NCBI GenBank assembly: GCA_018004645.1
Contig: JAGNBV010000019.1
Span: 1 to 36,278 of the forward strand
Source of the DNA: Bacteroidales bacterium
Lineage (GTDB): Bacteria; Bacteroidota; Bacteroidia; Bacteroidales; CAIWKO01
Length of the DNA stretch: 36,278 bases
Reading direction: 5' to 3'
The position numbers and the translations under genes were made by a program. The notes beneath the pieces were generated by a model that searched no databases, was not told the origin of the DNA, and saw only the letters and a program-made list of their open reading frames with translations. Position 1 is the stretch's first letter. Each line of letters opens with the position of its first letter. Shown in pieces: positions 5,800 to 35,163 of the stretch.

Positions 5800-8271
5800 T
5801 TATTTATTCAGAATAATTTTTCGTGAAATGGTATTGTCACTGCTTTGCAGTTTCACAAAGTAGATGCCGTTTTCTTTATCACGCAGATTGAGTGTATAAA
5901 GGTTGTTTCCGGCTTTTAACGAGAGCACATCAGCGAATATTTCCTGACCAACCATATTTACTACACTGAGGTTGATAGTATTATCCGATGTCATAGGTAT
6001 TGCCACGTTGACATGGCCATTGGTTGAAGGATTTGGATAAATGCTTACATTTCCAATGGACGCAACCTGGTCGATGCCTGAGAGGTCTTTGGTGGTAAAT
6101 TTATAAGCAGGGCTCCATGAACTTGTGTCCGCAGAGGTGAGGGCGCGCATACTCCAGTAGTAGGTGGTGTTCTGTTGCAACGAATTGAACATGGTGTCGG
6201 CATAATGGACGATAATAGGGTTGTTGTCTATTGTGTCATCAGGCATATAGTTCCCGTTATATGAAAAGTAAACCGGGTTTGAGAAGGTGGAATCGGTGTC
6301 TAATCTCATGGCATAACTTTCGATATATGTTATTTTTACCCATTCGAATATCGTCATAACATCAACATTCACGGCATTGTTGGCAGGAGCAACCAGTTCT
6401 ACGGTAGCTGCGGTGGTAAAATTCCATACATCCGACCACTGTGAACTTCCGAAACTGTTGACACCTCTTGCTTTCCAGAAATATTCCTGGCCAAATTTCA
6501 GTGTGTCGGGAGCTTTTCTTATCAACGTATCGTAAGGCGAAATAACTTTAATGGTATTGTATGCGGAGTCAATCACCGTATACATAACGTCAGAAAACAG
6601 CGAATCTGTAGCTAAAGCATATTCATAGTGTTTTGATCCGACACTTTGCCATTGCAGGAAAGTAACGGGAGATAAGTCAACGGATGCAGTAGCTGGGGAG
6701 TGGAGACCGATGCTGTCGATGGTGCTGAAATTACGTATCAGTGACCAATCTGAGGTATCAGACTGATGCATGGCCCTCATTCTCATGTGATAATTATTAC
6801 CAAAGTCAAGTTCTTTAGTAAAAGCCTTGGTTTTGTTGCTGGCTACTGTACCTGTAACAAATAACGGGCTATTAAATGCAAGAGTAGTGTCGATTTCATA
6901 TTCATAAGCTGTAATTCCGGTTATGGCACTCCATTCAAAGTACAATTCCACGTTACGATTAGTTATATTATTGGCCGGTTTTGTGATAGTAACGGTTTTT
7001 ATAACATTGAATTTATTAATGTTTGACCATCCCGATGAATCTGTCATACTATAATTGAATGCTTTAACTCTCCAGTAATACCTGGTGTCAAATGACAGTT
7101 GGTCCGCATTGACGGCCGAAAGATTGGAGGTGTAAGTTTTTACAGTACTAAAAAGACTATCAGTGCTCACCTGAACTTTGTAGTGGAAACCTGCGGGAAC
7201 TGCAGTCCATGATAACAGTACATCCGGCATTTTGGAGTTGCTGCTGTTGGCAGGATCGGTGAGAGTAGGTGCAAACATGTTGGTTACATCAACATAAACG
7301 GTTGCGGTGGAAGTTTCGCCATCGATGTCGGAAATAGTATAAGTAAAACTATCGGGGCCAGAATAAGATGATCCGGGTGTATACACGACTTTATCATCCA
7401 CCGGGTTGTTGGGAGTATTGTTGTTATTTATACTGGTGCTCCCGTGAGCTCCGTTAGTAGCAGTAATAGCGCCTGCATAAGGGACATCTCCAAAATTGTC
7501 GTTGTATAATACATTAATGGTTACCGGAGTGTATGAGTTGGTGTAAGCATAATCATTGTTAGTTACAGGCAGGCCGGCATCATTCACCGGGGTAATGGTA
7601 ATATAAACGGATGCTGTGTTAGTTGCTGATGGGAGCGGAGTGCCATCGTCGCCGATGCGGTATGTAAAAGAATCATTACCATAGTAGTTTGCATTGGGGG
7701 TGTAAGTAATTATTCCGGTAAGGATGTCAACTGTTGTGGTTCCGTGTAAGGCAGGGTTGACAACAGCAAGTGTGGACAGGTCAAGGTTGCCGTCTATGTC
7801 GGAATCATTGGATATAACATCAATGGCAACGGGTGTGTCTTCAAGTACTGTAGCGCTGTCAGCCAAAGTCACAGGCTGGTCGTTAACCGCGTTTACTACA
7901 ATATATACGAATGCTGTATCGCAATCGCCGTCGATATCGCACAACTGGTAGGTGAGGGTATCGTTACCTGAAAATTCGGGGTTGGGCGTATATTGCAGAG
8001 CGCCGTTGGAATCTATCGTGGCTATCCCGTTTGCGGGACCGCTAATAAGGCTCCAGAAATTTCCGCCGTCAGCACTGATACTATCATTGGTGCCGACAGA
8101 AGTATTCAATACCATATCTTCGTTTACAGTAAATGAATCGTCAAATGCCTGCGGGGAGTCATTCAACAGCGTAATAGCAACATGTTTTGTGCTAGTTTGG
8201 TAAATGGCTGCCGCCGTAAAAACACTTATTATACAGAGGATGGTGGCAATGGTAAAAAATCCCTTTTTCAT
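5800..8271 (-). CDS. T9SS-exported multidomain adhesin-like protein (Ig-like and FN3 domains)
   Basis: An 823-residue secreted protein. Residues 1-26 are a signal peptide. About 40-335 holds three tandem cadherin/Ig-like modules recognisable from VNEDMVLNTSV, VLEDTPVAIDV and TPVTINVLYNDN, each with an SFTY or TLTY strand. About 340-735 holds four fibronectin-III-like units sharing the pattern YxWRVKA / YFWKARGV / YYWSMRAL. The last 80 residues are a type A T9SS sorting domain starting at VSIYPNPSTNG and ending SRKIILNK. It is expected to cross the outer membrane and be anchored or released at the surface, possibly as an adhesin. No catalytic motif is seen. The terminator at 5752-5780 follows it; another at 8313-8342 separates it from the next T9SS gene. 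Confidence 0.85.
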   Translation of the reverse strand: MKKGFFTIATILCIISVFTAAAIYQTSTKHVAITLLNDSPQAFDDSFTVNEDMVLNTSVGTNDSISADGGNFWSLISGPANGIATIDSNGALQYTPNPEFSGNDTLTYQLCDIDGDCDTAFVYIVVNAVNDQPVTLADSATVLEDTPVAIDVISNDSDIDGNLDLSTLAVVNPALHGTTTVDILTGIITYTPNANYYGNDSFTYRIGDDGTPLPSATNTASVYITITPVNDAGLPVTNNDYAYTNSYTPVTINVLYNDNFGDVPYAGAITATNGAHGSTSINNNNTPNNPVDDKVVYTPGSSYSGPDSFTYTISDIDGETSTATVYVDVTNMFAPTLTDPANSSNSKMPDVLLSWTAVPAGFHYKVQVSTDSLFSTVKTYTSNLSAVNADQLSFDTRYYWRVKAFNYSMTDSSGWSNINKFNVIKTVTITKPANNITNRNVELYFEWSAITGITAYEYEIDTTLAFNSPLFVTGTVASNKTKAFTKELDFGNNYHMRMRAMHQSDTSDWSLIRNFSTIDSIGLHSPATASVDLSPVTFLQWQSVGSKHYEYALATDSLFSDVMYTVIDSAYNTIKVISPYDTLIRKAPDTLKFGQEYFWKARGVNSFGSSQWSDVWNFTTAATVELVAPANNAVNVDVMTIFEWVKITYIESYAMRLDTDSTFSNPVYFSYNGNYMPDDTIDNNPIIVHYADTMFNSLQQNTTYYWSMRALTSADTSSWSPAYKFTTKDLSGIDQVASIGNVSIYPNPSTNGHVNVAIPMTSDNTINLSVVNMVGQEIFADVLSLKAGNNLYTLNLRDKENGIYFVKLQSSDNTISRKIILNK

Positions 8272-8349: not shown

Positions 8350-11208
8350 TTATTTTGTAACGATAAATTTAGCGGTTCTGCTGCTGTTTCCGGCCAGGAG
8401 CTGAACAATATAAGTTCCTTTTCCGAAATTGCTGCAATCAATGTTTTCTATTTGATTTCCGCTGGCTTTGGCGCCCAGGTTAGCGAGTTTAACCAGTTTA
8501 CCGTTCAGGTCATAGATTTTTATGGTTACCGCCGATTTGACAGGCAGTGAATAAGAAATATTCACATTGTCAATGGCAGGATTGGGATAAATACTCAGGG
8601 TTCCTGATACATTCTCTTTGGCGTTTTGATTGTCGTTGATGCCAAGGTATTGGGTGTTTTTGAAAAAGCCTTTCCCATGGGTTCCAATGTATATTGCACC
8701 ATAGTTAGTAACACCGGGGTAGTTATAAACTTGCTGCCTGATGGCGAATACCGGAACTTTTGCCATGCCGTCATTCTCTTCAGTCCATTCAATAAGGGCC
8801 GCAGTTTTGGTAATATCCTGGGTGGCAAACATTCCATATTCTGTTCCAATAATCACCATGTTGGGGTTATTCATTTCGAATATTGCACTGTAAACCGGCA
8901 TGGCAGGTAATTTTTTACCGTTGGTTGTGCCTTGTTTGGATTCAAAAACAGGAGCAACATCCAGTGCATTTTTACAGAAATATACATAGTTGGTGTTTCC
9001 GTAATTACCCAAGGTAACAAGCAACCTCTGGGGGTTGTTTGGATCTATGGCAATGCTGGTAACTGCCTGGCCGAAATTGTTGATCAGGGCGCGTTCTACC
9101 ACGCAGTAGGGGCTGTTGTACCATCCGCTGAGCGAATCGGAAATAGCTAAGATATTGGAAATACGATAGACTGCTCCGGAAATTGTACCCACAAACAGGT
9201 AGTTTCCATCTTTAGATATCGCGAAAGTATGAGGGTTGGCAATATTGGCGATATTGTACCATTGCGGGGTTTTTCCAAAATCCAGGGCTCCGCGCGTGTA
9301 CCATACGCCTGTTGCCGTACCAACAAAGAAGTGTGAACTGACAATATCCTGCACCCATAGGGTGTCTCCGGCGCTTAAATTGCCGTCAGCAGGAGTAATA
9401 ACATAGTCGAAAGGATACCGGTTGTTCTGACTTTTCACGGTGATATGATCTCCTACCACGTGATCTAAAGTATCGATAAACCAGGTTTGGTCAGCGCTGA
9501 ATGTATTATTAAAACTTTCCCAATGGAGCATGGGGGTGATAAAGGGTCCTGCACCATCCTGGCCGGGAGTGGTTGAGCCTATCATGGTGCCGCTCATAAA
9601 TTCACTGTTGGTGGCTTCCTGATATGTAACACCGCGGTCGGGTGAACGCCAGATGCCGGCATATTGCATAGTGCCGAAAAATACATCGGGATTGATAAAA
9701 GAAAATGCTGACCATCCGCCGTCGCCACCATAAAGTACCCTGGCTTTTTTGGGATACAGGCCGGTGCCACTGACGTAAGGACTGCTGTTATCCTGTGTTC
9801 CCGACATAATACCTGTGCCACCATCCATAGCAACAGAATAAAACTGGGTCACATTGTAATTTTTATTTATTGTCTGGAACGTTTGGCCGTTATTGGTGGT
9901 TTTTGCCACTCCGCCGTCGGAACCTAAATAAAAGGTACCCGGATTTCTTTTGTCAAATACAATAGCGTGCATATCCACATGGGCGTCATATTCTTCCAAT
10001 CCTAAAGTAATTTGCGTAAACTGACTGCCAAGGTGCCATTCCCAAACCCTGATGCCACCCACAAAAACCTGGTTGGCATTGTAAGGATTCACAGCAATAA
10101 CATTATCATAACCTCCCTGCCCGTAGGTGGGGTTTGATGCGTCGTTGCCAAATAAAAAGAAAGAGGTGGAGCCTCCCGGTCCGATCAATGTCCAGTTTTC
10201 GCCCTTGTCGGTGGTGCGGTAAATTCCTTTTAACGCACCACCTGATGTTGCTATACAGGTGTAGATAATATTCGGATCGGATGGAGCAATGGAAATTTCT
10301 GTTCTTCCGGCGCCTGCCACAGGGCTTATTTCAGTGAAGGTATGAGGTTCGCCGTTTCCTGTACCGCCCTGTGAAATCCATACCTTGTTGCCGATGGCAA
10401 CCACAACGGACCGGTCGCTGGCTACTTCAACACAATTGGCGTTGGCAGCATTCAGCAGGGTCGGTGTAAGATAGAGGGGATTAACCCAGGTGGTTGATCC
10501 CAGGTCGCAATATTTTAATCCTTTGTTTGTAGCGGCATAGATCCTGCCGTTTACCGGATCAATAGCGATATCGTTTACAAAAGCCCATTCGGCGCCGATA
10601 CTATTTTGAGCAGTGGGAAAAGCATTGGGATACTGATGCCATGTTTCGCCGCCATCAGTTGATTCGTACATTCCGCTGCCGACAAATCCGGGGGTGCCGC
10701 TGATGCCGTCAACATTGGCAAACGATTCGCCGGTACCGATGTAATAATATCCGGTTATAGGGCTTTGAACAATACAACAAATGTTTACTTCAGGCATGCT
10801 GGGTACAGGCACCCAGGAAGTCCCGCCGGTTGTGGATTTAAACAATCCGCCGGCTACACCGCCTGCAAATAGCAGGTTGCTGTTGTCTTTGTCAATCAAA
10901 ATACCACGGGTACGGCCGCCAACATTGTCGGGACCAGCATCTTCCCATTGTAGGCCTATGGATTTTGCATGGCTTAATTCAGCAATTTCTTTACGGACTT
11001 TCATAATGTCGGCCATGCTGATCTCGCCGGTAACCTGGTTGTTTCTGATCGAAGCAAGCCATTTGTACGCGCCGGCAAATTCCTGATAAAAGACTGATTT
11101 CTTTGGATTATACTTTCTTTCAGCATTGCTGTTGACCACTGTTACAACAACAAAAGCTGCCACTATACTTAACAATCCGATTCCAAATAGTAGTTTTTTG
11201 CTTTTCAT
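8350..11208 (-). CDS. T9SS-exported Asp-box (BNR/sortilin-like) beta-propeller protein
   Basis: A 952-residue secreted protein. The N-terminus is a signal peptide or anchor (about residues 6-28). Repeated Asp-box motifs mark a sortilin/VPS10-like beta-propeller: STTGGTSW at 125-132, STDGGETW at 183-190, then TTDKGENW, TTNNGQTF and SPDRGVTY, many near phrases such as IAIDPVNGRIYAATNKG. The last 75-80 residues are a T9SS sorting domain beginning LSIYPNPAIDN and ending TAKFIVTK. Asp-box propellers occur in sialidases and glycanases, but no catalytic residues could be assigned, so a binding or structural role is as likely. The next gene upstream (lipA) lies 200 bp away in the same direction. Confidence 0.85.
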   Translation of the reverse strand: MKSKKLLFGIGLLSIVAAFVVVTVVNSNAERKYNPKKSVFYQEFAGAYKWLASIRNNQVTGEISMADIMKVRKEIAELSHAKSIGLQWEDAGPDNVGGRTRGILIDKDNSNLLFAGGVAGGLFKSTTGGTSWVPVPSMPEVNICCIVQSPITGYYYIGTGESFANVDGISGTPGFVGSGMYESTDGGETWHQYPNAFPTAQNSIGAEWAFVNDIAIDPVNGRIYAATNKGLKYCDLGSTTWVNPLYLTPTLLNAANANCVEVASDRSVVVAIGNKVWISQGGTGNGEPHTFTEISPVAGAGRTEISIAPSDPNIIYTCIATSGGALKGIYRTTDKGENWTLIGPGGSTSFFLFGNDASNPTYGQGGYDNVIAVNPYNANQVFVGGIRVWEWHLGSQFTQITLGLEEYDAHVDMHAIVFDKRNPGTFYLGSDGGVAKTTNNGQTFQTINKNYNVTQFYSVAMDGGTGIMSGTQDNSSPYVSGTGLYPKKARVLYGGDGGWSAFSFINPDVFFGTMQYAGIWRSPDRGVTYQEATNSEFMSGTMIGSTTPGQDGAGPFITPMLHWESFNNTFSADQTWFIDTLDHVVGDHITVKSQNNRYPFDYVITPADGNLSAGDTLWVQDIVSSHFFVGTATGVWYTRGALDFGKTPQWYNIANIANPHTFAISKDGNYLFVGTISGAVYRISNILAISDSLSGWYNSPYCVVERALINNFGQAVTSIAIDPNNPQRLLVTLGNYGNTNYVYFCKNALDVAPVFESKQGTTNGKKLPAMPVYSAIFEMNNPNMVIIGTEYGMFATQDITKTAALIEWTEENDGMAKVPVFAIRQQVYNYPGVTNYGAIYIGTHGKGFFKNTQYLGINDNQNAKENVSGTLSIYPNPAIDNVNISYSLPVKSAVTIKIYDLNGKLVKLANLGAKASGNQIENIDCSNFGKGTYIVQLLAGNSSRTAKFIVTK

Positions 11209-22509: not shown

Positions 22510-24663
22510 TTATTTGATGAATTTTCCGGTAAGTACTCCAAAGCTTTCATCAACAATTCTGAGAATGTAAATGCCTGAATTGTAATTACCGACATCAATA
22601 GTCAAAATGTTGGTCTTATCGCTTAGCTTGCCATAGTACAGTTCCTGTCCCGATGAAGAAAATATCTGAATAACAGGCTGTCCGGTGAGTGATGTCCCAA
22701 AATCAATGTTCAGCTTATCGCTGACAGGGTTGGGGTACATGGTCAGCACGGGAACCGGGCCGTTGTCTTCAATGTTCAAAGTGGGGTTGATGTATACATA
22801 ACCCATATAAGTGTTAAGGTTTTTCTGCCCGCTGTCGCAACTGATGGTCAATACAACTATTTGAGGCCCGCTCAGAGTGTATATATAGTTGGCAGCAACC
22901 GGTGTAAGCATCCCGCTGCCTGTAAATGCCCATACTACCGTAATCTGATTGTTTCCCGAGAGGTACATTGTATCAATATAAAAACTATCAACAACATAGC
23001 CAAAGCAGGTATCCAAAGTGTTTGTATATAAGGTGTCTACAATATAATTCAGCGAATCGTAAGGTTCGAATATTTGTGCGGTAAAGGTTATTACAGGGCA
23101 GGAAGGGTTTGCGCTGGTAATATTTACGGTGTAGGTGCCGGCCGATAGGTTATAAATATTTTGAGTGTACTGGTTAACATTTTGCCATGCAAAAGTATAG
23201 GGAGGTGTTCCGCCGGTAATGATCAGTTCAATATAGCCGTCGTGCCCGCCGGCTACTGATACGTGGCCAATGTTCGCGCTGACGCCGGTAATACACCCGG
23301 TGCTATTCTGCGGATACACCGTGTCGCAGAAGGTAGAGGTGCACCCCTGGCTCGTGACTGCCGTGAGGCAAACGGTGTGGGCGGCGGAGTCCTGGAAAAT
23401 ATGCTGTGGATTTTGCACATTGGAAGACGTACCGTCGCCAAAATCCCAATACCACGATATCACATTGGCGGTTGCTCCCGGAGTTACCATGTGTCCGAAA
23501 AATTCAAAGGCATTCAGCCCCGTTTGCGTGTAAGAAAAATATGCGTTGCAATTTACCGTGGGAGTTCCCTGCAGGTATATGGTGTCGCAATAGGTACTGG
23601 TACAGCCCGATGCTGTGGTGATAGTAAGGCACACATAGGCATAGGTCATAGTGGGGCTTAGGGGGAAACTCGGATTGGGCTGCGTGGATGTAAACACAAG
23701 ATTTTGTCCGGTACTCACTGTCCAGTACCAGCTGGAGGTGTTTATTTGTGAACTGTTGCCATTGTAGGACTGGTCGGAAAGGTTGACTGTATTGAGCACA
23801 CTGTCAATAGTATAGGTAAAATACGCCTGGCAGAGTGTGTTGGGTTGCAGCACCTGAAAGGTGTAAGTGGCACCCGGGCAGGCAGGGTTGCTGCTGGTGA
23901 TATGAACCGTGTAGGTTCCCGCCGGTATATTGGTGAGGTTTTGTGTTGTGGCGCCGTTCGACCAGGCAAAGTTGTAAGGAGGCGTTCCGCCGCTAACTGT
24001 CAGCACTATAGCACCATCGCTGCCTCCCGAAACGGAAACATTGGTGATGACAGCGCTTACATTCATGATGCAACCGGTATCCTGCACGATGATGGTATCG
24101 CAGAATGTAGATGTACAGGTGTTGGCGACTGTGGTGGTGTTCAGACAAACGATATAGGTCCCCGGCTGGCTATAGGTATGTGTGGTGTTCTGGGTGTTGG
24201 CAGAATTGCCGTCGCCAAAATTCCATACATAGTTGCTGGATGTTACCAACGAACCGGCGACAAAGGAATACCCATTGAAGCTATAGGTGTAGTTTGTCGT
24301 TGCCGAGTAAGTGAAATGGGTATAACAATTTGTGTTTTGCAAAGTGATAGTGTTGCAGTACGAACTCTGACAAAGGCCGGAGGTGCCGATATTGAGGCAT
24401 ACATTAACAGTACCGGGGAAGTTGTTAAAGGCAATTACCGGATTTTGTGTGTTATAAGTCATGGACATGCCGCTATATTGTACGGTCCAGGTCCATGTGG
24501 TGACATTAATCTGGGTAGAGTCCACATTGTATGAAGCATCATACAGATACAGGGTGTTACTGCCTGGCGTGTAGCTGTAAGTGAAATTAGCCTGGCAAAC
24601 CTGTTGCGAAAATGCACTTGTTGTTATAACAACAAAGAACAGGAGTGATAGAATTTTTTTCAT
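22510..24663 (-). CDS. T9SS-exported surface protein with PKD domains and SprB repeats
   Basis: A 717-residue secreted protein. Signal peptide 1-20. PKD-like domains lie at about 21-110, 111-195 (with WNFGDGNS), 277-370, 372-455 (WDFGDGTS) and 550-630. Two SprB repeats at about 200-272 and 458-530 share GGxDGxIxLxxxGGTPPYxFAW and AGTYTVxITSxNPxCP. The C-terminal 75 residues are a T9SS sorting domain starting LTMYPNPVSDK and ending GVLTGKFIK. SprB repeats are named for the gliding adhesin SprB, but this short protein is not SprB itself. A GGCAACC/TGTTTTTA element upstream resembles one before the ECF sigma gene, so it may be a target of that sigma factor. Likely role: surface adhesion or matrix. 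Confidence 0.85.
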   Translation of the reverse strand: MKKILSLLFFVVITTSAFSQQVCQANFTYSYTPGSNTLYLYDASYNVDSTQINVTTWTWTVQYSGMSMTYNTQNPVIAFNNFPGTVNVCLNIGTSGLCQSSYCNTITLQNTNCYTHFTYSATTNYTYSFNGYSFVAGSLVTSSNYVWNFGDGNSANTQNTTHTYSQPGTYIVCLNTTTVANTCTSTFCDTIIVQDTGCIMNVSAVITNVSVSGGSDGAIVLTVSGGTPPYNFAWSNGATTQNLTNIPAGTYTVHITSSNPACPGATYTFQVLQPNTLCQAYFTYTIDSVLNTVNLSDQSYNGNSSQINTSSWYWTVSTGQNLVFTSTQPNPSFPLSPTMTYAYVCLTITTASGCTSTYCDTIYLQGTPTVNCNAYFSYTQTGLNAFEFFGHMVTPGATANVISWYWDFGDGTSSNVQNPQHIFQDSAAHTVCLTAVTSQGCTSTFCDTVYPQNSTGCITGVSANIGHVSVAGGHDGYIELIITGGTPPYTFAWQNVNQYTQNIYNLSAGTYTVNITSANPSCPVITFTAQIFEPYDSLNYIVDTLYTNTLDTCFGYVVDSFYIDTMYLSGNNQITVVWAFTGSGMLTPVAANYIYTLSGPQIVVLTISCDSGQKNLNTYMGYVYINPTLNIEDNGPVPVLTMYPNPVSDKLNIDFGTSLTGQPVIQIFSSSGQELYYGKLSDKTNILTIDVGNYNSGIYILRIVDESFGVLTGKFIK

Positions 24664-24726: not shown

Positions 24727-26340
24727 TTAAAAAAAATATCTAACGCCCACGGTAATGCCCAGTGAATTATTTTTCATCGCATAACCGGAGGATGTGCTGA
24801 TGCTTTTTAAATTCATCCGGTAGTAAGGTTGGCATTCCAAAAGTATGCGTTCGTTGATTAAGTAACTGACCATCGTAGCAATATGCCACGAAAGTCCCAT
24901 GCTGAATTTTTTAAACTCCGAGTCCAGGGTATTCATATAGGCCTGCTCATTTCGGCCCGATGGCACAAAACCTTTGGTGCCTACGAGCAAACTCATTATT
25001 GGACCTGTCTTAATGCCGACGTTCAGCTTTCCAAAATTATACTGCCAGCCGACCGATAAAGGTAGTTCGATAAAGGTGTATGAATTTCTCCATTCCGGAT
25101 GGTGCAGCGTGTCATAAACCTTTGTGTTGACCGTATCGTATAGGTTGAGGTAGGTAGTGTCTATTTTCCATGTCCAGACAGAATCCAATAATCTTGGAAC
25201 AGAGTCGCAAATCCAGAAATAATGGTAGGATCCGCCTCCGGTATCTACATTCATGGTTTGTCCGGTGAAATTATAAAACTGATGGTTTTGCGGATTAATC
25301 AATACATTATCTGATTTAATATTTTCGGTAAACCGGGCATATTGTACTCCTGCTTCAAAAAACAGATGTCTTTTTTCGGCCCTGATATCAATGCCCGCTG
25401 TGATTGACGGATAATACAGTGTGGATGAATAACTATAAGTATCATCATCCCGGTTTTCGGGGAGCCTTGTCAACGGATATTGCAGCAGCGAATGGCCGAT
25501 GTTCATTCCGACAGACCACGATAACGGCTGACGCATTTTGTTGACAGGTGCCGGAGGGTAAGACACTTTCAGTGAGTTTTCGGTATCAATAAGGCCTGGA
25601 AGTGTGAGCATTTCAGAAATTGCAAATTCCGTTCTTACATTTGGTGAATAGCCAGTGGTTTTGTTTATCTCCTGAACTCCTGAAGCTGCGGCATTTGAAG
25701 TTTCCTGTAATGCTGTGCCAGATTTATTAATTGCAAGGTTGTTGCCCTGGGTATGGTCATTGTTTTCGTATTCGGGAAGTATCTCTGTTGGTGTGCCGGA
25801 GGCTGATGTGGCAAGGTTTGAAGTCAGGTTGTCATCATGTCTTTTTTGGGAATTGTTTATAGCAGGGGCAACAGCAGTTTTTGCAGCGGAATGCTCAGTT
25901 TCAGGTTGGATGTTTTTTTCAGAACCTGTTGTGTTATCTGCTAAATCCTGGGTGTTGTTATTGGTGTTGCTGTTGCTGTTATGAGTGGTGTTTTCGTTGT
26001 GGGTTGCATCTGATTTCTTTTCATCAAAAGTGATATCCTGATTTTTTTGAGCGGCGGTATTATCATTTTCATTGTCAGTTTTGTATGAGCTGCTTTTGTA
26101 TCCATTGTTTTCTTTGGGGTCAGAGCCTGTTTCACGGCTGGCGTTATAGCTGAATATTCCCAGGACGCTAATCATAAGCAGTAGCAAGACGAACAGGCTG
26201 TTCCGTTTGATATATCTGAAGAACGCCAGCATGGCGAGCTTTCCGAACACTTGCTTTTTTAGAGGAGCCGGCGGTTGAATTTCTATATCACTCAACTGTT
26301 GTTTTATCAATTCGTCGAAATTTTTTTCTGGACTTTTCAT
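24727..26340 (-). CDS. Dma-like dual-membrane anti-sigma/outer-membrane barrel protein
   Basis: A 537-residue protein with an unusual layout. Residues 1-46 are a charged cytoplasmic segment (starting MKSPEKNFDELIKQQL) of the kind seen in short anti-sigma domains without zinc ligands. Residues 48-66 are one membrane helix. Residues 67-270 are a low-complexity Asn/Thr/Ser/Glu linker, long enough to cross the periplasm. Residues 271-537 look like an outer-membrane barrel, with strands such as LSWSVGMNIGHSL and the terminal ITVGVRYFF ending in Phe. It overlaps the ECF sigma gene by 4 bp. This matches the Dma family of dual membrane-spanning anti-sigma factors described in Bacteroides thetaiotaomicron. 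Barrel and anti-sigma function are inferred from layout and context. Confidence 0.75.
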   Translation of the reverse strand: MKSPEKNFDELIKQQLSDIEIQPPAPLKKQVFGKLAMLAFFRYIKRNSLFVLLLLMISVLGIFSYNASRETGSDPKENNGYKSSSYKTDNENDNTAAQKNQDITFDEKKSDATHNENTTHNSNSNTNNNTQDLADNTTGSEKNIQPETEHSAAKTAVAPAINNSQKRHDDNLTSNLATSASGTPTEILPEYENNDHTQGNNLAINKSGTALQETSNAAASGVQEINKTTGYSPNVRTEFAISEMLTLPGLIDTENSLKVSYPPAPVNKMRQPLSWSVGMNIGHSLLQYPLTRLPENRDDDTYSYSSTLYYPSITAGIDIRAEKRHLFFEAGVQYARFTENIKSDNVLINPQNHQFYNFTGQTMNVDTGGGSYHYFWICDSVPRLLDSVWTWKIDTTYLNLYDTVNTKVYDTLHHPEWRNSYTFIELPLSVGWQYNFGKLNVGIKTGPIMSLLVGTKGFVPSGRNEQAYMNTLDSEFKKFSMGLSWHIATMVSYLINERILLECQPYYRMNLKSISTSSGYAMKNNSLGITVGVRYFF

Positions 26341-26924
26341 ACTACTTCTTTTAAAGTATTATTCTTGACTATTCCGTTGATTTTTGACATCAGCATTTTG
26401 CGCGCCTTGAACAGCTGTGTCTTGGAGGTGTTTATTGTGATGTCGAGTTGTTCGGCTATCTCTTTATGGCTGAAACCTTCCACCACATAGAGATTAAACA
26501 CCGTGCGGTAACCATCCGGCAACTCGCCGACCATTGTAAACAATGCACGGCTGCCTATGCAGGCTATGATTTCATCATAAACCGAAAAACTTTCTTCGTA
26601 AGTATCGTTGGAGATTTCGTTTTCAAAGTTTTGTATCTCTGTGTTGAGCTTGTTTTTCAGATCTTTACGGAGGTGGTTTAATGCGGTATTCACGGTAATG
26701 CGGTGCATCCAGCAATAAAAAGCCTTGTCGTCGGTAAGAGTAAAAGAACCGATATTTTTATAGATTTTAATCAGGGCTTCTTGCAGTACATCACGGGCCA
26801 GATCTCTATCGGCCACATAGCGCAGGCTCACGGCAAAAAGCCTGGGAGCATATTTGTCGTAAAGCTCGTTTTGGGCTTTTTTATGCCATTTTCTGCATCC
26901 GTCTATGAGTTCTATGATTTCCAT
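26337..26924 (-). CDS. ECF RNA polymerase sigma factor
   Basis: A 195-residue ECF-type sigma-70 protein. Sigma-2 is at about residues 20-85 with RDLARDVLQEALIKIYKNI and FYCWMHRITVNTALNHLRK (core binding and -10 recognition). Sigma-4 is at about 125-185 with the helix-turn-helix FSHKEIAEQLDITINTSKTQLFKARKML (-35 recognition). The longest frame begins at a TTG (26927); the ATG at 26924 is the better start. It overlaps the Dma-like gene by 4 bp, so the sigma factor and its probable membrane anti-sigma are made together. A GGCAACC/TGTTATTA element upstream suggests autoregulation. Confidence 0.92.
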   Translation of the reverse strand: MEIIELIDGCRKWHKKAQNELYDKYAPRLFAVSLRYVADRDLARDVLQEALIKIYKNIGSFTLTDDKAFYCWMHRITVNTALNHLRKDLKNKLNTEIQNFENEISNDTYEESFSVYDEIIACIGSRALFTMVGELPDGYRTVFNLYVVEGFSHKEIAEQLDITINTSKTQLFKARKMLMSKINGIVKNNTLKEVV

Positions 26925-26940
26925 CAAATCACTATTAACA

Positions 26941-26971
26941 TAATAACACTTTTGATGTTAAAAGGGTTGCC
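26941..26971 (-). promoter_or_regulatory. Candidate autoregulated ECF promoter before the sigma gene
   Basis: On the minus strand GGCAACC (26965-26971) is followed after 16 nt by TGTTATTA (26941-26948), 17 nt before the ATG at 26924. The same two boxes with a 15-nt spacer precede the PKD/SprB gene. GGCAACC alone is not rare in the window, so the support is the paired arrangement and position. Confidence 0.45.
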
Positions 26972-30242: not shown

Positions 30243-32600
30243 ATGAAAAAACAATACTTTGGTTTCATTCTATATGTGATTTTTTTGTTTTCCTGCGGCC
30301 GGTTGTCAGGGCAGGTTGTCTCGCTCAACCGCATAGGTCAAACGCCGGGTAGTGCCGGGTTCCATGTGAACTGGGACAGCACGGCCAAAAGACTGATTGT
30401 TGGCTGTGGCACCAGCATCTGGATATATGATATGGGCGATCCGCAGAATTATTCCATTATTGCAAAACGTCCATTCCTTGGTCTGATAAACGAAACCGAG
30501 GTATACGGCGATGTGCTTTTTGCTGCTGCCACCCACGACGGCGTGTATGCACTCGATTATAATTCGCATGAGCTGGATGTGCTGGCACATTATGATATGC
30601 AGGGCATGGGCGACACAGCAGCTTATGATATGTGGCGAACGAATGATACGCTGTATATTGCCGATAATTTCAGGGTGCGCATGCTGAAATATATACCGGG
30701 GACGGGTTTTGTAAAACTGGGCAGTTTCGGTCCGCCGAATGCATTTTGCGTGGCGCGCAGAGGCGATTACATTGCGGTAGGAGGGCAGGGCGTTTTATAT
30801 TTGACTCCTGATACAGCGGTGCGCGGAAACATACATATTTATCACAAAAACAACCTGAACACCCCGGTAGCTGTATGGCAGAGTGAACTGGTCAGCGTGG
30901 TGCAGGATATACAGTTTGCCGATCGTAACGACAGTATCATCTATGTGTGTGCAGGGCCAGAGGAAATACTGTTTTACAAGTCAAATTTTTTTGCATTGAA
31001 TTTTGCCACGGATACCTTGTTTCCGGCCGATACTTTTTCGCTGAGCGGCGGCATACTGGGTTTTGCACAACTGAATATCATGAACATGGATTCGCAGAAC
31101 GATACTTTGTTTTTGGTTACTACTGCAGCCACGAATACCTCCGTATTTCCTGCGGCATATATGCCAATAATTGATGCGACCGGCTTGCCCGCGGATAGCA
31201 TGCGAAAGATTGGTTATGTCATTCCGGGCCTTTGGCATTTCGACGCAGCACTTATGGACGGAACGCCTTATATTGCCATGTCGTCGGAGTGGTGCGGAGT
31301 ACTGGTGAGCAATATCTCGCAGTTGCAACCCGCCGATACGCTGGGATTTCTGGAAACCGGCGGATGGTGTGTTAACAATCACCTGCAAAACGGTTCTTTA
31401 TGGGCATGTCACGAAGGCTATGGGTTGGTGGCATATAATACGGACAGTCTGAAATATGTCAACGGATTTGATACCCGCGCCCAGCTTATGCACATTTACG
31501 ATGTGAACAACCATTTTTTCTGCAGCGATATAGCATTTCTGAACGATTCCCTGATGATGGTGAATTCATCGGAAGTTTACAATATAAAACCCTGGTTGTC
31601 GGGCGGGACACAGCAACTGGCCTGGGATATGAACAAAAACTATATGACACACATGAACGTGTTGCAGACGAATGCGCGCATACGAATGGTGGCTTCCTAC
31701 GATAACCTCCTGGGTAAACAATGGATAACTCTTTTTGATCCTTTTGATTCTGGAGGCAGTTTTCACGATCTGGCTCTGGATTCGATGAACAGCGATTCGA
31801 GAGGCATAGCCGTTTCGGGAGATACGGTTTACTATGGAAAAACCATTAATAACATACATTACCTGTGTGCACAGCATGTATATAATGACGGATTTATGTT
31901 TCTGGATACCATAAAACTTTCGCTTGGTTTTTTTGGTCTTTTCGATGATGAGATACATTCCATATCCATTGAAAATGGAATCATTGCCGTGGCTTATGGG
32001 GCACAGTTTGCGTGGTTTAACTGGGTCGGAGGCGCCCTGAATGAACTTGCCATGGATTTTAAGTTCGGCCAGCGGGCGATGGGACTGGAACTGAAAAACA
32101 AATACCTCTATGTTGCGGACAGATTTTTCGGATTAAAAGTTTATGATATCTCTTCCATGAACAGCGCTGTGCTTGTGGCTGAATGCCGCGGCACAGGCGG
32201 ATGGAAAAACCTCTATGGAAGCGGTACCGTAACTGTCGGGCCGGACGGGACTATTTATTTGACGGATTTTCACGCGGGCGTAATTATGATTGAGCCTTTT
32301 GATCATACCTTAGGAACATTCAGTGAAAAAGGAATCAGCACGGATGATAAAATGATTGTTTACCCCAATCCTGCGGAAGGTATGCTGAATATTGACTTTG
32401 TCGCCAATGAAAAGGGCAGGGCCGATATTGAAATTTATGATTTATATGGGAAAAAGATAAGTGCTTCTGCAATTATGAATTGCAACAGGGGGAAGAATCA
32501 CAAAACTATAAATTTAAAGGGTTTGCCTGCTGCGACATATGTGCTGGTTGTGAGACAGCTTGCAACAACGCGATCAGCAGTGTTCGGCATATGCAAATAG
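30243..32600 (+). CDS. T9SS-exported LVIVD-like beta-propeller protein
   Basis: A 785-residue secreted protein. The N-terminus MKKQYFGFILYVIFLF...LSGQ is a signal peptide, although FLFSC could read as a weak lipobox. The body, about residues 30-690, has repeats of the kind GNIHIYHKNN, KVYDISSMNSAVLVAECRG, LYIADNFRVRML and PYIAMSSEWCGVLVSNISQL, suggesting an LVIVD-type propeller. The C-terminal 85 residues are a T9SS sorting domain (MIVYPNPAEGM ... AVFGICK). The sorting-domain tail is less typical than in the other cargo genes. No enzymatic motif is visible, so the role is unknown. Confidence 0.78.
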   Translation: MKKQYFGFILYVIFLFSCGRLSGQVVSLNRIGQTPGSAGFHVNWDSTAKRLIVGCGTSIWIYDMGDPQNYSIIAKRPFLGLINETEVYGDVLFAAATHDGVYALDYNSHELDVLAHYDMQGMGDTAAYDMWRTNDTLYIADNFRVRMLKYIPGTGFVKLGSFGPPNAFCVARRGDYIAVGGQGVLYLTPDTAVRGNIHIYHKNNLNTPVAVWQSELVSVVQDIQFADRNDSIIYVCAGPEEILFYKSNFFALNFATDTLFPADTFSLSGGILGFAQLNIMNMDSQNDTLFLVTTAATNTSVFPAAYMPIIDATGLPADSMRKIGYVIPGLWHFDAALMDGTPYIAMSSEWCGVLVSNISQLQPADTLGFLETGGWCVNNHLQNGSLWACHEGYGLVAYNTDSLKYVNGFDTRAQLMHIYDVNNHFFCSDIAFLNDSLMMVNSSEVYNIKPWLSGGTQQLAWDMNKNYMTHMNVLQTNARIRMVASYDNLLGKQWITLFDPFDSGGSFHDLALDSMNSDSRGIAVSGDTVYYGKTINNIHYLCAQHVYNDGFMFLDTIKLSLGFFGLFDDEIHSISIENGIIAVAYGAQFAWFNWVGGALNELAMDFKFGQRAMGLELKNKYLYVADRFFGLKVYDISSMNSAVLVAECRGTGGWKNLYGSGTVTVGPDGTIYLTDFHAGVIMIEPFDHTLGTFSEKGISTDDKMIVYPNPAEGMLNIDFVANEKGRADIEIYDLYGKKISASAIMNCNRGKNHKTINLKGLPAATYVLVVRQLATTRSAVFGICK

Positions 32601-33564: not shown

Positions 33565-35163
33565 ATGATAAGAATATTAACCTCACTGGCTATACTATTT
33601 TGTGTTTTTTCATCTGCTTTTACTCAAACACAGGACCAGAAGAAACTCAACAACTGGTACAATAAAGACTTGCAACTGGATAAGGTTTTAGGTGTCAGTA
33701 CCGAAAAGGCTTACAAAGAACTGTTGAAGAATAAAAAATCACAAACCGTTATTGTTGCCGTAATTGATGGAGGAACGGATATTATGCATGAAGACCTGAA
33801 AGAAAATATTTGGGTCAACGCGGACGAAATTCCCGGCAACGGTATTGATGATGATAAAAACGGCTATATTGACGATATCCATGGATGGAATTTTATCGGG
33901 AATGCAAAAGGCGAAAATGTGGATAAGGATAACCTGGAGGTGACACGCCTGTATAAGGAACTCGACCCGAAATACAGGGGAAAGGATAAGTCATCCGTGG
34001 CCGATAAAGAGGAATTTGAGCTGTACCAAAAGGTAAAAGAGGTTTATAATGAAAAATCTCAGGAATCGCAGGCTAATATTGGCATGGCACAATCAGGCAG
34101 GGAACTCAAAGTTGCCGACAGTATTGTGAAAGCATACCTGAAAAAGCAGGATTACTCGATCAAAGACCTGAAAAAACTAAATAAGGCGCCGGCGGCTGTG
34201 GCTGAAAGCGCCGAAAAACTCAGGGTATGGCAGTTGTTCGGTATCAGTGCCGATGATCTGATTGCATACGGAGATGAAATAAATAGCGAGCTCACCTATC
34301 ATTATAATCTTGATTTTGATGGACGAGAAATTGTGGGTGATGATTATAAGGATAACAGCAACCGTTTTTATGGCAACAACGATGTTACAGGCCCCGAGCC
34401 TGCACACGGCACTTTTGTTGCCGGCGAGATCGGCGCTGTGCGGAACAACGGCAAAGGTGTTGACGGTATAGCGTCCGATGTTAAACTTATGATTATAAGG
34501 GTTGTTCCCGATGGCGATGAGCGCGACAAGGATGTGGCAAACGGTATTCGCTATGCTATCGAGAACGGCGCCAAAGTCATCAATATGAGCTTCGGGAAAG
34601 CTTTTTCGCCCCAGAAGAAATTTGTGGACGAGGTGTTGCCACTGGCTGATAAATACGATGTGTTGCTGGTTCATGCGGCAGGCAACGATGCAGAAAACAA
34701 CGACTTGGTTGCTAATTATCCGACACACATCGGGGCCGACGGGAAGCCCATCACCAACAACTGGCTTACTGTAGGCGCAAGTTCTATGAAGGTGGATGAC
34801 GACCTGGCTGCCAACTTTTCCAATTATGGCACCAAAACGGTTGACTTATTTGCCCCCGGTGTTGATCTGTGGGGTACTAAACCTGGTAACCGCTATGGAG
34901 CATTCAGCGGGACAAGTATGGCCAGTCCTGTGGTAGCCGGCATGGCTGCCGTCATCAGAAGTTATTATCCTCAATTGTCGGCTTCAGAAGTGAAAGAAGC
35001 CATTATGAAATCGGTAACCAGTGTGGATCAGATGGTGCAGAAGCCAACAGAGGCGGGCAAAGGCGAAAGAGTAAGTTTCAGCACACTGTCGGTTAGCGGC
35101 GGCGTGGCAAATTTATACAATGCGTTGCTCATCGCTGAACAGATAGCTGCTGCGAAAAAGTAA
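33565..35163 (+). CDS. Secreted S8 family subtilisin-like serine peptidase
   Basis: A 532-residue subtilase. Signal peptide about 1-20 (AFTQ). Catalytic Asp68 in AVIDGG (a DGG variant of the usual DTG/DSG), His281 in HGTFVAGEIGA, oxyanion Asn374 in AAGND and Ser451 in GTSMASPVVAGM. Between Asp and His lies an insertion of about 150 residues, rich in Lys/Glu and predicted helical (about 120-250), as in other Bacteroidota subtilases with GNGIDDDKNGYIDDIHGWNF after the Asp motif. No T9SS domain is seen at the C-terminus (ends AEQIAAAKK), so it is probably periplasmic or exported another way. Confidence 0.92.
   Translation: MIRILTSLAILFCVFSSAFTQTQDQKKLNNWYNKDLQLDKVLGVSTEKAYKELLKNKKSQTVIVAVIDGGTDIMHEDLKENIWVNADEIPGNGIDDDKNGYIDDIHGWNFIGNAKGENVDKDNLEVTRLYKELDPKYRGKDKSSVADKEEFELYQKVKEVYNEKSQESQANIGMAQSGRELKVADSIVKAYLKKQDYSIKDLKKLNKAPAAVAESAEKLRVWQLFGISADDLIAYGDEINSELTYHYNLDFDGREIVGDDYKDNSNRFYGNNDVTGPEPAHGTFVAGEIGAVRNNGKGVDGIASDVKLMIIRVVPDGDERDKDVANGIRYAIENGAKVINMSFGKAFSPQKKFVDEVLPLADKYDVLLVHAAGNDAENNDLVANYPTHIGADGKPITNNWLTVGASSMKVDDDLAANFSNYGTKTVDLFAPGVDLWGTKPGNRYGAFSGTSMASPVVAGMAAVIRSYYPQLSASEVKEAIMKSVTSVDQMVQKPTEAGKGERVSFSTLSVSGGVANLYNALLIAEQIAAAKK

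Follow-up and report, generated by a model that had tools for sequence, protein, structure and literature searches.

Is the surface protein encoded next to an ECF sigma factor and a membrane-spanning partner the output of a single-chain sensor that reaches from the cytoplasm to the cell surface? The question is raised by a 36,278-nucleotide stretch of DNA (hereafter the window) from a Bacteroidales bacterium, in which a sigma gene, its partner gene and a gene for a T9SS surface protein follow each other on the reverse strand. An earlier note, made from the letters of the window, had proposed that the partner has the layout of the Dma anti-sigma factors, and that the T9SS protein could be controlled by it. 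Dma proteins carry an N-terminal domain, a transmembrane (TM) helix, a tether and a barrel in one chain (PMC13088901), and in the literature we searched they have been studied in gut Bacteroides, with regard to vesicles and glycan use. Here, we examine the layout and homology of the partner protein, the conservation of its gene neighborhood, the promoters of the locus, and the divergence of the protein's parts relative to those of its neighbors.

Results

The sigma factor and its one-chain partner

The two overlapping genes and the parts of the partner protein are as follows.

26337-26924, minus strand: ECF sigma factor, 195 aa, ATG at 26924 (Pfam Sigma70_r2, 9e-15; Sigma70_r4_2, 1e-16)
24727-26340, minus strand: Dma-like dual-membrane anti-sigma factor, 537 aa, so called from its layout, hhalign matches to Dma1-type proteins and adjoining sigma gene
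26197-26340, minus strand: putative cytoplasmic sigma-binding N-terminal segment, residues 1-48 (hhalign to Dma1-type; its divergence tracks sigma)
26140-26196, minus strand: inner-membrane helix, residues 49-67 (hydropathy)
25522-26139, minus strand: disordered periplasmic linker, residues 68-273 (composition)
24730-25521, minus strand: predicted C-terminal outer-membrane beta-barrel, residues 274-537 (Pfam matches of relatives; C-terminal aromatic residue)

Both sigma domains score well over the Pfam cut-offs. The stop codon of the sigma gene overlaps the ATG of the Dma-like gene by 4 bp (ATGA), as had been described in the earlier note. Its account of a 537-aa partner with one inner-membrane helix and a low-complexity linker of roughly 200 residues also held up on closer analysis: a terminus of about 48 aa precedes the sole hydrophobic segment of the protein (residues 49-67, Kyte-Doolittle mean 2.25), and this is followed by some 206 residues (68-273) rich in N, T, S, A, E, D and K. 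Among 46 relatives from comparable loci (the cassette relatives, see below), the best hydrophobic segment starts at residues 42-84, and linker length ranges from 116 to 262 aa, versus 102-169 aa in Dma1-type proteins. The gene is present in one copy in the window genome. The C-terminal half had been described as barrel-like and ending in Phe; the chain does end in Phe (...VRYFF), and the barrel is supported through relatives, the window protein alone matching no Pfam barrel family.

That assignment draws on two lines of evidence, namely that 23 of the 46 cassette relatives match OMP_b-brl_2 (OMP_b-brl is matched by 9 of them), and that the family profile matches the barrel of Dma1-type proteins. 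Searches of the profile against the PDB gave chance-level matches only, and a structure model of residues 269-537, built from the single sequence, was of unusable quality (pLDDT 31.6).

Homology to Dma proteins

Profile comparison of the cassette relatives (A4) with gut Dma1-type proteins (A5) by hhalign gave a probability of 99.6% (E = 1.7e-23) over the C-terminal half, and the first ~70 aa alone matched the Dma1-type group at 98.3% (E = 1.2e-14). The proposed resemblance to Dma proteins is thus supported by the published layout and by homology to the Dma1-type at both ends of the chain. The gut group was called Dma1-type from context: a NigD-like gene, read by eye, lies divergently beside the sigma gene, which fits the NigD1 regulon described for Dma1 (PMC13088901), and the gut genome reached for this comparison was Bacteroides sp. 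GM023 rather than B. thetaiotaomicron itself. A match to the profile was present in 299 of 393 sampled Bacteroidales genomes. We conclude that the product of 24727-26340 is a relative of the Dma proteins, alike in layout, homology and sigma adjacency, that it appears to reach in one chain from the cytoplasm to the outer membrane, and that it probably holds the sigma factor in check.

The window family also matches a second group (A2) at 98% (E = 2.5e-13), which is probably the ortholog group of the EcfO-type partners, a label given on the grounds that most Bacteroides relatives examined contain it. Among the loci collected, two encode natural fusions of a sigma factor to a barrel, as in Dma3 (L094:4261-5916 and L130:4263-5906). 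In both, the TM helix comes almost directly after sigma region 4; in the L094 fusion, region 4 ends at residue 167 and the helix spans residues 174-192. From this position of the helix, the anti-sigma N-terminus seems to be missing, and the sigma factor itself to be tethered.

A three-gene cassette across Bacteroidales

The third gene of the locus lies downstream of the Dma-like gene.

22510-24663, minus strand: T9SS-secreted surface protein (PKD_4, 5e-22; SprB, 2e-14; Por_Secre_tail, 4e-16; TIGR04183)
22513-22740, minus strand: T9SS C-terminal sorting domain of this product (Por_Secre_tail)

Its product combines a signal-peptide-like N-terminus (MKKILSLLFFVVITTSAFSQQ, by eye) with PKD domains, SprB repeats and a type A sorting domain, and the window genome encodes the SprA translocon as well as at least 150 sorting-domain (CTD) proteins, so that a signal-peptide-like start, the sorting domain and the secretion system of a type A T9SS cargo are all present. 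Elsewhere in the window, at least three more genes encode T9SS sorting-domain proteins (5800-8271, 8350-11208 and 30243-32600), and a subtilase-family protein (Peptidase_S8) is encoded at 33565-35163, near the last of these.

Relatives were gathered by their similarity to the window Dma-like protein and not by their neighboring genes; the loci counted as Bacteroidales are those of the window's order, which was recognized through gut-type fusion loci classed in it. A sigma gene lies directly upstream in 55 of 57 Bacteroidales loci, a conservation that marks the Dma-like gene as no chance open reading frame. Directly downstream, a T9SS-CTD gene was found in 46 of 56 assessable Bacteroidales loci, as compared with 19 of 216 other genes of these loci (Fisher p = 6e-27). 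Since the loci were picked among the best matches, this fraction holds for that part of the family to which the window protein belongs. One FecR-like locus (L020) still counts in these tallies, its CTD gene, 366 bp away, not being scored as downstream cargo; it was excluded from the alignments of the cargos (A3) and of the barrel family (A4). The remaining 10 of the 56 loci have no T9SS neighbor. The cargos of the 46 complete cassettes resemble each other in their domains, with Por_Secre_tail in 46/46, PKD_4 in 42/46 and CarboxypepD_reg in 34/46, and 5 label changes suffice for the main cargo-linked group in a tree of the sigma factors, versus a mean of 35 after shuffling, with modest inner support. 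None of the 26 gut Dma1-type loci has a T9SS gene beside it.

Taken by family, 36 of the 45 Bacteroidales families sampled contain the complete set of sigma, Dma-like and T9SS-CTD genes, frequently with gaps of less than 20 bp, which rules out the T9SS gene as a chance neighbor. In six loci (L019, L190, L191, L195, L198 and L199), two cassettes stand in tandem, and here barrel type and cargo type pair consistently across genomes (15/15 genome pairs).

A promoter shared by the sigma and T9SS genes

Two sites on the reverse strand of the window resemble each other closely.

26945-26971, minus strand: GGCAACC-N15-GTGTT, a putative ECF promoter for the sigma operon, some 20 bp upstream of the sigma start codon
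24692-24719, minus strand: GGCAACC-N16-GTTTT, a putative second promoter copy, within the 63 bp that separate the Dma-like gene from the T9SS gene

The motif shared before sigma genes reads GGCAACC(N)TTT-N-GT(G/C)TT, and its dyad precedes the sigma gene in 29 of 46 cargo-linked cassettes, versus a mean of 0.78 and a maximum of 4 in 200 shuffles; about a third of the cassettes are without a recognizable motif upstream. A looser pattern has exactly two matches in the window, where 0.10 would be expected. Exact matches were found before the sigma genes of four genomes (G000-G003), in all of which the promoter also precedes the cargo gene; the three same-genus genomes (G001, G002 and G003) carry exact copies in both places. 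Further copies within the genus precede a protein of 425 aa that combines PSII_BNR with Por_Secre_tail (orthologs in two genomes) and a DUF7619 protein of 586 aa that also has a sorting domain (one genome).

Across 36 other genomes, an unbiased search with a stricter pattern returned 27 rows (26 distinct sites) versus 14 for a reversed control, and because these totals are only about twice the control, support rests on the positions of the sites. By our hand assignment from their contexts, 6 of the 26 sites lie before cassette sigma genes and 8 before other T9SS sorting-domain genes, the latter being first after the site in seven instances and second in one; the remaining sites are intragenic, sit at the ends of contigs or precede genes of other kinds. 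The loose pattern, applied to the whole window genome, gave mostly intragenic matches in control-level counts, and a pattern search of the window showed GGCAACC promoters to be absent before the three other sorting-domain genes at 5800-8271, 8350-11208 and 30243-32600. Gut Dma1-type sigma genes (L092, L093 and L139-L157) have a conserved element of their own immediately upstream, TGCAGTATTT-N-TTGCATTT, which may be the promoter of the Das1 regulon.

The conserved cassette and the shared promoter before the sigma and T9SS genes strongly support the earlier suggestion of the T9SS neighbor as an output of the sensor. A functional unit made up of the sigma/Dma-like pair alone, with an unrelated T9SS gene beside it, is very improbable: beyond Bacteroidales, at the level of the class, the pair does persist in other orders mostly without a T9SS gene (neighbor in only 3 of 40 loci), but within Bacteroidales the gene is kept in most families, often at close range, and in the window's genus it has a promoter copy of its own.

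Divergence of the barrel follows that of the cargo

In 43 cassettes, similarity of the barrel and similarity of the T9SS passenger were correlated after removal of sigma and GC effects (partial r = 0.56; 0 of 1000 permutations reached this value), and the correlation recurred in two sub-branches (0.76 and 0.43). The N-terminus showed no such link with the passenger (partial r = 0.03), while it was correlated with sigma (0.47), with the exception of one sub-branch of 15 cassettes (0.07). As the barrel tracks the passenger and the N-terminus tracks sigma, the barrel may recognize its own cargo; an arrangement in which the N-terminus binds sigma and the barrel meets the cargo would fit this co-divergence, which we regard as a lead only.

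On this basis, the T9SS protein could be the input of the system as well as its output, with the barrel recognizing its own secreted cargo in a closed loop that measures export or attachment. We consider such a loop possible but rather doubtful. It would account for the co-divergence of barrel and passenger and the different allegiance of the N-terminus, and it has a parallel in PorA, a T9SS CTD protein that acts upstream of SigP in Porphyromonas gingivalis (PMC7712824). Against it, matrix correlations of this kind may arise when two fast-evolving parts reflect a shared phylogeny more closely than a slow part does, the comparison of the short N-terminal segment covers 73 columns and is noisy, and the link between sigma and N-terminus vanishes in the sub-branch of 15 cassettes. 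Somewhat less likely again is the broader form, in which each one-chain regulator of environmental Bacteroidales watches one T9SS protein, the barrel reading the cargo and the sigma factor adjusting its production; if true, this would amount to a closed inventory loop for the surface that operates without a separate inner-membrane sensor.

Discussion

Taken together, the cassette and its shared promoter most plausibly represent a branch of the Dma kind that is dedicated to the T9SS. From the layout, homology, cassette and promoter pairs documented in the sequences, we propose, with a probability of roughly 75%, an autoregulated Dma-type dual-membrane anti-sigma cassette dedicated to T9SS cargo, with the following steps from sensing to promoter use. 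At the inner membrane, the N-terminus would bind the ECF sigma factor; via the disordered linker, it would be coupled to the outer-membrane barrel. When the barrel senses an event at the surface, the sigma factor would be released, probably because the chain is cleaved by a protease or because the linker transmits a pull. The freed sigma factor would then read GGCAACC-N-GT(G/C/T)T promoters before its own operon, the neighboring T9SS gene and a few further T9SS genes, and is thereby expected to raise its own operon together with a small set of T9SS cargos.

What the barrel senses could be more general than a surface protein. The cassette might serve as a general envelope-stress sensor: the barrel, or the process of its assembly, would register damage to the outer membrane, and the T9SS proteins would form one part of a protective response. 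A like pair is induced by BcpT, probably via envelope stress (PMC9308784), and Dma1 and Dma2 mutants hypervesiculate (PMC13088901). We nevertheless hold this to be unlikely, given that the predicted targets are T9SS cargos and not lipopolysaccharide or chaperone genes, and that the co-divergence of barrel and passenger would be left unexplained.

Several known systems share features with the proposed T9SS-dedicated cassette. In Dma1/Das1, Dma2/Das2 and Dma3 of B. thetaiotaomicron (PMC13088901), a sigma gene likewise adjoins a protein with a sigma-binding N-terminus, a TM helix, a tether and a barrel. The Dma1-type loci of gut genomes differ in being free of T9SS genes and in their upstream element, whereas the window cassette has a T9SS cargo and GGCAACC-N-GTxTT; the window sigma factor also lies apart from the Dma1-type sigmas, in another part of the sigma tree, with modest support. 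The EcfO-type pairs of Bacteroides and Phocaeicola, including the one induced by BcpT (PMC9308784), resemble the cassette in having a periplasm-spanning anti-sigma factor with a C-terminal barrel and an adjacent sigma gene, but are followed by genes for a lipoprotein and a small exported protein instead of a T9SS cargo. The PorA-PorXY-SigP pathway of P. gingivalis (PMC7712824) is similar in that a T9SS-linked ECF sigma factor receives a signal from a CTD protein at the surface; SigP, however, controls the T9SS machinery via a two-component system, and no Dma-like protein has been described there. Lastly, the SM6 promoters of Flavobacterium psychrophilum (PMC9723704) are of an ECF type and are associated with T9SS genes and with a single sigma/anti-sigma pair, but their targets are T9SS components and their -10 element is a CGT box.

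Relative to known Dma systems, three features set the cassette apart, as judged from sequence comparison: the T9SS cargo gene that completes it, its promoter, and its wide distribution in Bacteroidales. No earlier description of a sigma/Dma-like/T9SS cassette, or of individual regulation of T9SS cargos, was found in the literature searched, which covered few subscription papers. The occurrence of this gene set in dozens of Bacteroidales families suggests that control of surface display by such cassettes is common. The cassette and its predicted promoter offer a concrete handle on the regulation of individual T9SS cargos, making both signal and ligand directly testable.
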